From assembly GCA_020062665.1 (NCBI GenBank), contig JAGUVW010000013.1, positions 62,001-126,000 of the forward strand: 64,000 nucleotides of DNA. The letters run 5' to 3'. Positions 1,671 to 61,069 of the stretch are shown piece by piece. The position numbers and the translations under genes were made by a program. The first letter of the stretch is position 1, and every line of letters begins with the position of its first letter. The notes under the pieces are model-generated. The model had not been told where the DNA came from and searched no databases. It was given only the letters and a program-made list of their open reading frames with translations. This stretch comes from Pseudomonadales bacterium (lineage in GTDB: Bacteria > Pseudomonadota > Gammaproteobacteria > Pseudomonadales > Ketobacteraceae).

Positions 1671-2704
1671 GCGGATTCACTTTCCTGTTTGAACACGGTG
1701 GTGAGCTGGGCCAGTTCGTTGAGTTTGGCCAGGGCCAGGCCGCTGCCGATGGCATCCTGCGCGAGGGCGACGCCTTCTTGCAGGGAGTCGGCGATGCCTG
1801 CGACGTAAATCGCAGCGCCGGCATTGAGCGCGACGATATCGGCGGCGGGGCCCGGCTCTTTGCCGAGCACAGCCTTGACGATGGCCAGGCTGTCATCGAC
1901 GGAGCTCACTTCCAGGGTGGACAGCGGCGCGCGTTGCAGGCCGAACTGTTCCGGCGTGATGCTGTATTCCTTGATGGCATCCGGCGTGGCTTCGGCGACG
2001 AAGGTTTCGGCATTGATGCTGATTTCATCCATGCCGTCGGCGGCGTGGACCACCATCACGTGTTCACTGCCAAGGCGCTGCAATACTTCGGCGATGGGGC
2101 GGACCCATTGCTTGCCGTAGACGCCCATCACCTGGCGTTTCGCGCCGGCGGGATTGGTGAGCGGGCCCAGCAGGTTGAAGATCGTGCGCACACCCATTTC
2201 CTTGCGCGGACCGACAGCGTGTTTCATCGCGCTGTGATGGGACGGCGCGAACATGAAGCCGACGCCAATGGTTTCCACGCAGCGGGCCACCTGTTGCGGT
2301 GAAATACTCAGATGCACACCGGCTTTTTCCAGCACGTCGGCACTGCCGCTGACGCTGGAGACGGAACGGTTGCCGTGCTTGGCTACCTTGCCACCTGCCG
2401 CCGCCACCACGAAGGCAACAGTGGTGGAAATGTTGAAGGTGCGGGAGCCGTCGCCACCGGTACCGCAGGTGTCCACCAATCTGTCGGCTTTGATTTTCAC
2501 CGGCGTGGCGAGGGAGCGCATGACGCGGGCGGCGCCGGTGATTTCGTCCACGGTTTCGCCTTTCATGGCAAGACCCACCAGAAAGCCGCCGATCTGCGCG
2601 GGCGTGGCGTTGCCGGTCATGATCTGGTTCATCACGTCCGCCATTTCCTGCTCGGACAGGTTCTGGCGGACGATGACTTTTTTCAGCGCGGTTTGAATGT
2701 CCAT
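1667..2704 (-). CDS. trpD: anthranilate phosphoribosyltransferase
   Basis: TrpD (345 residues) transfers phosphoribose from PRPP to anthranilate, the second committed step to tryptophan. The glycine-rich PRPP loop [14 protein letters not shown] (about residues 81-94) and the KHGNRS motif (about 109-114) are present, and an N-terminal helical domain precedes them as usual. It is a stand-alone enzyme, not fused to TrpG. The start ATG overlaps the trpG stop by one base (TGATG) and its own stop overlaps trpC by 4 bases. Confidence 0.97.
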
Positions 2705-3293: not shown

Positions 3294-4778
3294 TCAGTTC
3301 TCCACCGGAATGAGGCCGTTGGCGGCCATGGCGACGGCGCGGAAAATCGCGCGGGCTTTGTTCTGCGTTTCTTTCCATTCCAGTTTGGGGATTGAATCCG
3401 CTACCACGCCGGCGCCAGCCTGAATGTGCAGCTGGCCGTCCTTGATTACGGCAGTGCGAATGGCGATCGCCGTGTCCATGTCGCCGTGCCAGGACAGATA
3501 GCCCACGGCGCCGCCGTAGACGCCGCGTTTGACCGGTTCGATATCGTGGATGATTTCCATGGCGCGGATTTTCGGTGCGCCGCTGAGGGTTCCAGCAGGA
3601 AATGTTGCGCGCAAAACATCAAGGCAGGTTTTGCCGTCTTTCAGTTTGCCTTCCACATTGGAGACGATGTGCATCACGTGGGAGTAGCGCTCGACGATCA
3701 TTTTGTCGGTGAGCTTCACGCTGCCGATATCGGCGATGCGCCCCACATCGTTGCGGCCCAGGTCGATCAGCATCAGGTGCTCGGCAATTTCCTTGGGGTC
3801 CGCCAGCAGTTCTTCTTCCATTGCCAGATCTTCTTCCGGCGTTTTGCCGCGCCGACGGGTGCCAGCAATGGGCCGCACGGTGACGGTGCCGTTGTCCACC
3901 CGCGCCAGAATTTCCGGCGAGGAACCGGCAATCTGGAAGTCACCCATGTCGAGGAAATACATGTAGGGCGACGGGTTCAAACAACGCAAAGCACGATAGA
4001 GATCCAGCGGCGGCAGGTTGTAGGGAATCGACATGCGCTGGGAAATCACCACTTGCATGATATCGCCGGCCAGCACGTATTCCTTGATGCCATCCACCGC
4101 TTTTTCAAAATCCGGTTGCGGAAAGCTGGATTTGAAATCGCTCTCCTGCACGGCGAATTTGGGCGGATCGTTTTCCGGCTGCAATGGTTTTTTCAGTTTT
4201 GCCACAATTTCGTCCAGGCGTTGCTGGGCTTTTTCGTAGGCGTTGTTTTGCGTGGTGTCGGCGTGGGTGATGACAAAGAGCGTGCCTCGCAGGTTGTCGA
4301 ACACCACGATGTCGTCGGACACCATCAGCATGATGTCCGGCGTGCCGATAGGATCGGGCTTGGCGCCTTTATCGAGTTTCTTTTCGATGTAGCGCACGAT
4401 GTCGTAGCCGAAATAGCCGACGAGGCCGCCGTCGAAACGCTGCAGGCCTTCCACCCGCGGCACTTTGAACTGCTGCTGGAAGTGTTCGATGTAGGCGAGC
4501 GGATCGTCGACGTGCTGCTGCTCGATGATCTGGTCGCCGTCCTGCAGGATGATTTCGCGGTCACGCACGGTGAGGCGGATTTTGCAGGGCAATCCGATGA
4601 TCGAGTAACGGCCCCATTTTTCGCCGCCCTGGACGGATTCGAACAGGTAGGAATAGGGTTGGTCCGCCAGCTTTTTGTAGGTGCTGAGCGGGGTTTCGAG
4701 GTCGGCCAGCACTTCGCGCGTGAGCGGGATTCGGGTGTAGCCCTGGGCAGCCAGGGTTTTGAATTGTTCGGGTGTCAT
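3294..4778 (-). CDS. trpE: anthranilate synthase component I
   Basis: TrpE (494 residues) converts chorismate and ammonia to anthranilate with the TrpG subunit; it is the first, normally feedback-inhibited step. The N-terminal domain has the tryptophan-site strand ending in [11 protein letters not shown], and the chorismate-binding half has [20 protein letters not shown] and the C-terminal [10 protein letters not shown] segment. The frame extends 99 codons further upstream with no start signal and runs through an inverted repeat, so the start at 4778 ([14 protein letters not shown]) is chosen by family length and N-terminus. It is followed after 2 bases by trpG. The leader holds the foldback element at 4839-4944, with its inner edge about 60 bases from the start. 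Confidence 0.96.
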
Positions 4779-4838
4779 GTTGGGTTCCGTTTGTGCTTCG
4801 GTGCCGCTTTTGGGCTCTTGGTCCGAGCGGGTCGAGCA

Positions 4839-4944
4839 TGGGTGGAACCTGATGCCATTCCGGACACGCCATGAATCCATCCATGGAGGCTGCACAGCGA
4901 CATCCCTGTCGCTGAGCGTCCGGAATGGCATCAGGTTCCACCCA
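4839..4944 (-). repeat. foldback element A: perfect 27-bp arms, 52-nt conserved core
   Basis: The arms 4839-4865 and 4918-4944 are perfect reverse complements (27 of 27). They enclose a core of exactly 52 nt (4866-4917). Read on the minus strand, the core is 46/52 identical to the core of the element at 58167-58278. It contains the hairpin AGCGACA-GGGA-TGTCGCT (4913-4896) and a second hairpin TCCA-TGGA-TGGA (minus strand). The core motifs are CAGGGATG and CATGGATG. Outer partial pairing (GTCGAG, and GTCCGAG at 4821-4827 with CTCGGAC at 4982-4988) may lengthen the structure. It lies on the sense strand between gph and trpE, about 60 bases before the trpE start. Confidence 0.9.
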
Positions 4945-5248
4945 CACTCGACTCGAAGTCCCTGCCAGATTCGCACGATGCCTCGGACTCGATGGCGCGA
5001 ATCCAATGCCCAAGCACTAGCAATTTTCAAATAAATGTTAAAACGTCGTTCAGAAAACCCAGCGCCAAGAATCACTTAGCTCTGAGCAAAGCGGAGATCA
5101 CCGGCGCCATCGCCAACGAAGGCTGGTGAAAAGAGAGGAAGGCTGTTTCGAAATTGCAGTTTTCACGATTGATTACGTCAATGTTCGTTTCGAAAGACGC
5201 TTTAAAACTACACCAGCTTCAAACGCCCTGCCAACTCTTTTTTCCACT
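4945..5248. other. non-coding stretch between foldback element A and gph
   Basis: About 300 bases without a supportable gene. It is more AT-rich than its surroundings and should hold the trpE promoter on the minus strand, but I see no pair of boxes good enough to name. A short dyad (GATTCGC / GCGAATC, about 4968-5003) is present. A tiny open stretch near 5083-5128 has no start and no recognisable product. Confidence 0.4.
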
Positions 5249-5947
5249 TCATAATAACAATTCACGAAAATCATCCAGCAGCCAGTCCGGGTCGCAGGCG
5301 GCCACAGACTCACCGTGGTTGTAACCGTAAGTCAGGGCTGCGCTGACCATGCCCGCCGCTTTGGCCGCTTCCACGTCGCTGCGGCTGTCGCCCACCATCA
5401 GGCTCGCTTTGGGTTTGGCACCCACCTGCTCGCACACATGCAGCAGGGGCAGCGGATGGGGCTTGCGTTCCGGCAGGCATTCGCCGCCAATTACGCTGCG
5501 AAAAAACGCTGCAATCTGAAACTGCTCCAGCAACGGCGTGGTGAACGGCAGCGGTTTGTTGGTGACAACTGCCAGTGGAATACCCAGACCAGCGAGGCCT
5601 TTCACCACTTCTTTCACCCCCGGATAGAGGCGGGTCTGGCGGCCGTTTTCCTGCTGGTAAATCTGTTTGAACAGGGTCAATGCTTGTGCGTGGGCAGACT
5701 CGTCAATTTGCGCCACGGCAGCAGGATCTGCAGTGCCAGCCAAGGCGCGCCTCACCAGTGTGGCGGCGCCATTGCCCACCCAGCCGCGGACTTTTTCCTC
5801 GCCGGCCGGTGCGCGCCCCAATTGCTCGAGCATGCGATCTACCGCCGCCGCCAGATCGGGGGCGCTGTCCACCAAGGTGCCGTCGAGATCGAAAATGATC
5901 AGTTGCGGCAGGTGGTTGTGGAAGTGGGCGACGAGTTTCGTGAGCAC
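5249..5947 (-). CDS. gph: phosphoglycolate phosphatase (HAD family)
   Basis: Gph (232 residues) dephosphorylates 2-phosphoglycolate, which arises for example from repair of oxidised DNA ends. The HAD motif I nucleophile and general acid are in FDLDGTLVD (Asp20, Asp22), motif II is VVTNKP, and motif III/IV is MVGDSRSDVEAAKAAG near the C-terminus, all in order. The alpha-helical cap domain sits between motifs I and II. The start is a GTG directly abutting the rpe stop codon, so the two are co-transcribed and probably translationally coupled. Rpe-gph adjacency upstream of trpE is the standard arrangement in pseudomonads. Confidence 0.93.
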   Translation of the reverse strand: MLTKLVAHFHNHLPQLIIFDLDGTLVDSAPDLAAAVDRMLEQLGRAPAGEEKVRGWVGNGAATLVRRALAGTADPAAVAQIDESAHAQALTLFKQIYQQENGRQTRLYPGVKEVVKGLAGLGIPLAVVTNKPLPFTTPLLEQFQIAAFFRSVIGGECLPERKPHPLPLLHVCEQVGAKPKASLMVGDSRSDVEAAKAAGMVSAALTYGYNHGESVAACDPDWLLDDFRELLL

Positions 5948-58166: not shown

Positions 58167-58278
58167 GGCCGGGGAAGGCGGGAGGCAGTTCGGAAGGCTC
58201 AGCGACAGGGATGTCGCTGCGCAGCCCCCAGGGATGGGTTTACGGCGTCTTCCGAACTGCCTCCCGCCTTCCCCGGCC
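58167..58278 (+). repeat. foldback element B: perfect 30-bp arms, 52-nt conserved core
   Basis: The arms 58167-58196 and 58249-58278 are perfect reverse complements (30 of 30). The core 58197-58248 is 52 nt. The core holds AGCGACA-GGGA-TGTCGCT (58201-58218) and CCCA-GGGA-TGGG (58227-58238), both presenting CAGGGATG. The core is 46/52 identical to that of element A on the opposite strand, while the arms have no resemblance except a GGA near the core. It starts 20 bases after the argS stop and ends 35 bases before the SPOR gene, on the same strand as both. Confidence 0.92.
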
Positions 58279-60768: not shown

Positions 60769-61069
60769 AACCCTGCCGACGCAAGAACACGGAAGCCCGA
60801 CGAGAAGCCGCTGGTGGGATGATGAGACTGGAACGTTTGCGGCCATGGATGGCCGCGAACGAGCCTACATGGATGTACTCGTGGCGGTTCCAGACTCATC
60901 ATCCCGCCAGCGGCGCCCACTTACCATCTTCACCCTCTCTCCAAAACATGAACCGGTCAGAAAACTCTGCCGCGCGGTCGCTGCGGCGATATAAAACCGT
61001 CATCTCTTTCGCATAGAATGCCGCCGCTTTAGCCTTTGTCTTTTTTTCGACTTTTCCCGGTCTCGCCCA
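60769..61069. other. intergenic region after hslU holding foldback element C
   Basis: About 300 bases. The first half holds the foldback element (60807-60914). The second half is more AT-rich and should carry the promoter of the heme-sensor operon; a TAGAAT box at 61012-61017 is the best -10 candidate, with no clear -35. Confidence 0.45.
60807..60914 (+). repeat. foldback element C: 28-bp arms, 52-nt core
   Basis: The arms 60807-60834 and 60887-60914 match as inverted repeats at 26 of 28 positions; one exception would be a U-G pair. The core 60835-60886 is again exactly 52 nt. Its first hairpin GCGGCCA-TGGA-TGGCCGC (60839-60856) has the same offset as in elements A and B. The second, TACA-TGGA-TGTA (60866-60877), is closed further by CGAG/CTCG. 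Both loops present CATGGATG. Core sequence outside the motifs is diverged from A and B. It lies 38 bases after hslU on the same strand. Confidence 0.88.

Follow-up and report, generated by a model that had tools for sequence, protein, structure and literature searches.

The long inverted repeat that lies between gph and trpE in the window (a stretch of 64,000 nucleotides from a contig of a Pseudomonadales bacterium, family Ketobacteraceae), called element A in the following, represents a single copy of a TwoAYGGAY-type repeat that is dispersed in intergenic regions of gammaproteobacteria, and it is not specific to the tryptophan genes. The copy is genuine and belongs to a motif that is known, though with no explained function, and it is probably not a special tryptophan switch. 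The reading that we tentatively prefer, judging from sequence comparisons, is that of a dispersed fold-back with a head that would bind CsrA/RsmA and that, at trpE, would be a passenger or a secondary element and not a trp regulator. An Rfam motif with no assigned function is thereby seen to be a dispersed repeat with a strand-specific mismatch bias and a paired evolution of its arms.

The element in the gph-trpE spacer

The coordinates of the features are collected in Table 1, where the names of the genes, as well as those of trpG, trpD, trpC and hslV, are based on NCBIfam.

Table 1. Features of the gph-trpE region and further copies of the element in the window.
Feature	Positions	Strand	Basis and remarks
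trpE	3294-4778	-	TIGR00564, 586.6 bits (cut-off 517.7)
Element A, long inverted repeat	4828-4955	-	38-nt arms and 52-nt core
3' arm of the stem	4828-4865	-	inverted repeat I1
Conserved core with two ANGGAY-loop hairpins	4866-4917	-	52 nt; common to copies B and C and to copies in other genomes
Hairpin 2 of the core	4868-4890	-	GCC/GGC base, loop CATGGATG, TTCAT bulge; conservation, covariation, sequence
Hairpin 1 of the core	4895-4914	-	loop with ACAGGGATGT; fold, covarying stem
5' arm of the stem (on the trpE strand)	4918-4955	-	inverted repeat I1, 38 nt, and fold
Attenuator-like hairpin followed by TTTT	5086-5052	-	fold; separate from element A
trpL leader peptide	5166-5098	-	VKTAISKQPSSLFTSLRWRWRR, GTG start, ending RWRWRR before the stop; separate from element A
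Promoter-like TTGGCA-18-TAGTTT	5234-5205	-	upstream of trpL; similar TTGGCA by eye in spacers of relatives
gph	5249-5947	-	NCBIfam
Copy B	58167-58278	+	20 nt past argS stop; 30-nt arms, 100% complementary, 52 nt apart
Copy C	60807-60914	+	38 nt past hslU stop; 28-nt arms, 93% complementary, 52 nt apart

The initial annotation had described a fold-back between gph and trpE with a 27-bp stem, and the inverted repeat was indeed recovered and found to be significant against shuffled sequences, with a folding energy of the minus strand of -101.5 kcal/mol compared to -54.2 on average for the shuffles (z -11.8; 0 of 200 shuffles). The 27 bp correspond to the perfect inner part (4839-4865 with 4918-4944) of the longer 38-nt arms, which are 92% complementary. 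The distance of about 60 bases from the inner end to the start of trpE that was given holds for this perfect part, and 49 nt separate the nearer end of the full arm from the trpE ATG at 4778. The placement of the GGA motifs on the trpE strand was likewise correct, and the element is in the trpE sense inside the predicted trp leader, as had been suggested. The paired-GGA pattern occurs four times in the window, compared to an expected 0.09 occurrences. The sister species (G001, 75% DNA identity) carries a copy at the corresponding position, whose arms are paired but unrelated to those of element A.

Tryptophan control

The initial annotation also proposed that the element acts as a leader regulator of the tryptophan operon, a reading that we consider very improbable. 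In its favour are the location within the predicted leader, on the trpE strand and 49 nt before the ATG, and the copy that is kept in the sister species. The accompanying remark that no classical Trp-rich leader peptide could be found did not stand, however, because trpL is present upstream and is kept in relatives; an RWRW-type leader was found at 11 of the 15 trpE loci examined, the window included. A distance of 96 nt separates the attenuator-like hairpin from element A downstream of it. What would make the element a trp attenuator, namely a leader with Trp codons and a terminator formed by the element, was not seen, as both features lie at 5166-5052, outside of it. With the trpL leader and the hairpin upstream, the response to tryptophan is thus likely to take place by ordinary attenuation.

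The gph-trpE spacer could be measured at nine of the 15 loci (five were excluded because the wrong side was read and one because no neighbour was found), and the fold-back element is present in two of these nine, both belonging to this genus. Element A is hence a genus-level addition to the trp leader. That the same element is found beside unrelated genes speaks further against a trp-specific role.

Dispersal and relation to the Rfam family

In this genome the core pattern is found in at least 14 places, while the reversed-pattern control gives none. With a stricter pattern, matches were obtained in 19 of the 96 genomes searched, counting this one. When a genome collection was scanned, at least 116 stretches matched, those listed being from gammaproteobacteria or assigned to Pseudomonadota, and a scan of viral contigs for the element gave no match. 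The copy number ranges from 1 to 57 in 28 genomes, which were chosen for having a match. It is important to point out that in one genome (G121) many copies were observed no more than a few tens of bases away from contig ends, which indicates that assemblies break at these repeats, and the copy numbers are thus probably underestimates.

Using a permissive Rfam scan, element A was found to match RF01731 (TwoAYGGAY) at 4827-4956 on the minus strand, scoring 46.3 bits where the cut-off is 43. The predicted fold follows the plan of this family, that is, an outer stem bearing two hairpins with AYGGAY-like loops. A fast Rfam scan did not report RF01731 for element A, and gave no match to it for the copies at 16 other loci; many copies, for example those in Stenotrophomonas, score under the cut-off. 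RF01731 was reported in 14 of the 96 genomes (this one and relatives), in six of them above the cut-off, and in none of 14 control genomes.

In a published table, RF01731 is listed as probably an RNA, not cis-regulatory, and from human gut, gamma-Proteobacteria and Clostridiales (PMC2864571, available portion). Binding of CsrA to TwoAYGGAY has been proposed in a text whose available portion terms the outer stem not well conserved (PMC4333381). In the available portions of two further papers, the motif is named in a table only (PMC11701678) or is not named (PMC9788540). A description of these dispersed repeats was not found in the open-access literature that was searched. The form seen here, namely a dispersed fold-back with a constant head, paired locus-specific arms and a bias on one strand, does not appear in the available portions of the published descriptions.

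The core and its resemblance to a CsrA site

The conservation of the core was evaluated for 155 of the 172 elements with distinct arms (see below for their selection). The GGA motifs, the GCC, the CA of loop 2 and the GGC are forced by the search pattern. Both loops were found to be ANGGAY, with the GGA motifs ca 23-24 nt apart. Among the unforced positions, A11, with which the ANGGA of loop 1 begins, is conserved in 150 of the 155 elements, A27 is present in all 155 although G was also allowed, and C10, T43, A46, C47 and G51 are conserved as well. The stem pairs of both hairpins covary across the set, and hairpin 2 has a conserved TTCAC bulge and a GCC/GGC base.

The core loops, CANGGAYG, resemble the CsrA binding consensus. 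Sequence and fold together place paired ANGGA sites in hairpin loops on one predicted RNA, and binding of CsrA by element A is plausible. CsrA does not account for the TTCAC bulge and the GCC/GGC base of hairpin 2. A csrA gene was found in 19 of the 19 pattern-positive relatives, which carries little weight given a background of 90 of 96 relatives, and one genome (G077) without a csrA match nevertheless has an RF01731 match below the cut-off. If the CsrA head is real, there would be up to dozens of unrecorded CsrA sites per genome.

Variable arms around a constant core

The stem of the element is usually 23-37 bp long and its sequence is locus-specific. For 11 copies in this genome, 84% of the core positions are common, compared to 37% of the outer left-arm positions. 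For 21 copies in G121, the cores are 97.8% identical, while arm positions 6-25 are only ca 52-65% identical and 95-99% paired. (The rows of one genome, G113, were apparently out of register in this comparison and were left out.) At an orthologous site, 16 distinct Stenotrophomonas sequences have 97.3% paired cells, compared to 84.0% when shuffled and 33.8-40.3% when slid. Changes on both sides were found in 16 of 42 pairs, which is less striking, as the shuffle mean is 12.9 and 15 of 500 shuffles are as high. The arms thus differ by locus yet stay paired via compensatory change. The 12 copies in a Luteimonas genome (G115) have near-identical arms and diverged flanks, which means that the arms can travel with the core.

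At the Stenotrophomonas site of the 16 orthologous sequences, three arm types are combined with several core types, and in one genome (L246) the core at this site is inverted inside unchanged arms. Similar swaps of whole alleles are seen in 14 aligned sequences at a second site. The L246 element alone accounts for all 13 swapped pairs among 290 orthologous pairs, indicating a single inversion event.

These observations lend support to another explanation, in which the element is a REP-like non-autonomous DNA element. Here, the GGA strand would be active as single-stranded DNA in folded form during replication, recombination or transposition, the core would be the site of a DNA-acting protein, and any role as RNA would be incidental. 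The exchange of cores and the one inversion fit this explanation, as do the near-identical cores with differing arms throughout G121 and the wide range of copy numbers among the 28 chosen genomes. On the other hand, no clean empty site was found at the two Stenotrophomonas sites that were searched for a filled/empty pair, where the idea under examination was that the arms are made from target DNA at insertion. Also, no recurrent neighbouring gene, be it a mobility gene in general or a RAYT-like one, was found within 1.2 kb of the elements examined.

It was also observed that inserts of ca 70-90 nt with palindromes are present inside the GGA loops in five sequences (L249, L250, L251, L391 and L410), similar ones recurring at two different loci. 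They would fit an exchange of cores among sites, or else an element that has the loops as its target.

Mismatches in the arms

In total, 352 elements were found. Of these, 46 had weak stems (score below 14) and another 134 had arm 12-mers in common with an element earlier in the set; without both groups, 172 remain. Mismatches were counted excluding the inner six and outer two arm positions, and the genes were called with a home-made codon-usage finder, not with a published program.

Read on the GGA strand, the arms of the 172 elements have 153 G.T mismatches and 29 A.C mismatches (P 1.5e-21), and 120 purine-purine compared to 12 pyrimidine-pyrimidine mismatches. The ratio of G.T to A.C is 52:5 where both neighbouring genes run with the GGA strand and 35:8 (P 4e-5) where both run against it. 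It is 25:6 in the convergent context and weaker, 16:6 (P 0.05), in the divergent one. The bias is thus found on the GGA strand whichever way the genes run, so that this strand itself is kept foldable, and its persistence against the neighbouring genes means that their transcription does not explain it. These results argue that the folding of the GGA strand is under selection.

The contexts of the 172 elements are 50 co-oriented, 41 anti-oriented, 28 convergent and 26 divergent, with a missing neighbour in 21 cases and an overlap with a predicted gene in six. A smaller first sample had given 29 co-oriented, 26 anti-oriented, 27 convergent and 8 divergent sites, and none of its 107 elements was located within a gene. 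The low number of divergent sites in that sample was not borne out by the larger one.

One could also envision an mRNA 3'-end element, the stem of which would protect the transcript coming from upstream or bring it to an end, in analogy to REP/BIME hairpins. Copies B and C, which follow closely behind argS and hslU, and the many copies near 3' ends would agree with this. However, copies running against the neighbouring genes are as common as those running along with them (41 and 50, respectively), the larger sample has a fair number of divergent sites (26), the bias tracks the GGA strand and not the gene strand, and copies A, B and C are not followed by a T-tract. We consider this explanation improbable.

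According to the reading that we prefer, that of a dispersed fold-back with a CsrA/RsmA-binding head, the GGA strand would fold into a long locus-specific stem carrying the two small ANGGAY-loop hairpins. When this strand is transcribed, the two loops could bind one CsrA/RsmA dimer, with the stem acting as a sequence-independent clamp that presents both of them, and the many copies might serve as local or titrating CsrA sites. One copy would then have entered the trpE leader downstream of the existing trpL attenuator, where it may be a passenger or at most a secondary CsrA-responsive element.

RNA or DNA folding

The mismatch spectrum was further analysed with a model in which strand-symmetric mutation is weighted by the mismatch energy of either RNA or DNA, on either strand. 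The log-likelihood is -745.5 without weighting, -698.7 with RNA energies and -657.9 with DNA energies of the GGA strand, and the DNA energies are better than the RNA ones in 100 of 100 bootstraps. Energies of the complementary strand did not help the fit. The preference for DNA is driven by the G.A mismatches, of which 80 were observed compared to 31 expected; the corresponding numbers for A.C are 29 and 94.

As a small control for the RNA side, 52 terminator-like hairpins were considered, which have 24 G.T, 4 A.C, 11 purine-purine and 8 pyrimidine-pyrimidine mismatches. These hairpins differ from the elements in purine bias (P 7e-4) but not in the ratios of G.T to A.C (P 1.0) and of G.T to G.A (P 0.15). 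Since the better fit of DNA is set against this small terminator-like control only, a CsrA-type role of the RNA and a role of the DNA strand are both kept in consideration.

The explanation in terms of a REP-like DNA element gains from the better fit of the DNA energies and from the independence of the bias from the gene strand, both of which count against the CsrA reading. It is weakened by the control, which represents the RNA side only and differs solely in the purine bias, and it would also make the CsrA-like loops a coincidence. Taken with the points on mobility given above, we regard it as possible but somewhat doubtful. If it is true, a supposed RNA family needs to be reclassified.

One can go further and suggest that TwoAYGGAY is not, or not only, an RNA, but a gammaproteobacterial single-stranded-DNA fold-back, the constant core of which would undergo exchange, conversion and occasional inversion between sites, with the two arms being rewritten together. 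Its head would mimic a bivalent CsrA site and thereby connect the Csr network with a DNA repeat of the REP-like kind. We judge this broader proposal to be rather unlikely.

Comparison with known systems

The elements share with TwoAYGGAY the two GGA-loop hairpins on an outer stem and, unlike in the available portions of its published descriptions, they are dispersed in multiple copies and have arms that are locus-specific but paired. The GGA motifs in hairpin loops and the pairing of sites are also reminiscent of the CsrA-sequestering sRNAs of the CsrB/RsmZ type. The elements differ from these in that a unit has only two sites, a genome contains many such units, and no promoter of their own was identified. 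One weak match to PrrB_RsmZ (26.5 bits, cut-off 44) extends into the edge of a copy in Stenotrophomonas.

As for the REP/BIME palindromes, for which GTAG and CGTC families are described in the available portion of PMC3733652, the likeness is that both are short fold-backs lying between genes in multiple copies, frequently paired head to head, but the present elements have much longer stems and sequence-variable arms. Membership in the CGTC/GTAG families was rejected, as the aligned elements have no invariant GTAG or CGTC tag; the absence of the REP-type GTAG tag is a further point against the DNA-element explanation. The trp attenuator with trpL shares the spacer with element A but is a separate feature upstream of it. 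A general warning follows, namely that copies in leaders and at 3' ends should not be taken as gene-specific regulators.

Finally, some observations were made at individual loci. In Stenotrophomonas (G142, L381:365-940), a larger repeat of ca 560 bp, with many copies per genome at 71-85% identity, holds two head-to-head elements. At another locus, both elements (L230:1949-2048, plus strand, and 2236-2351, minus strand) are overlapped by sub-threshold matches to the Yersinia sRNA Ysr224 (27-28 bits, cut-off 70), which may reflect a remote relationship or no more than the length of the hairpin. A cobalamin riboswitch (RF00174, 73.7 bits) is present at L153:126-294 on the plus strand, in a locus that was included on account of its element.
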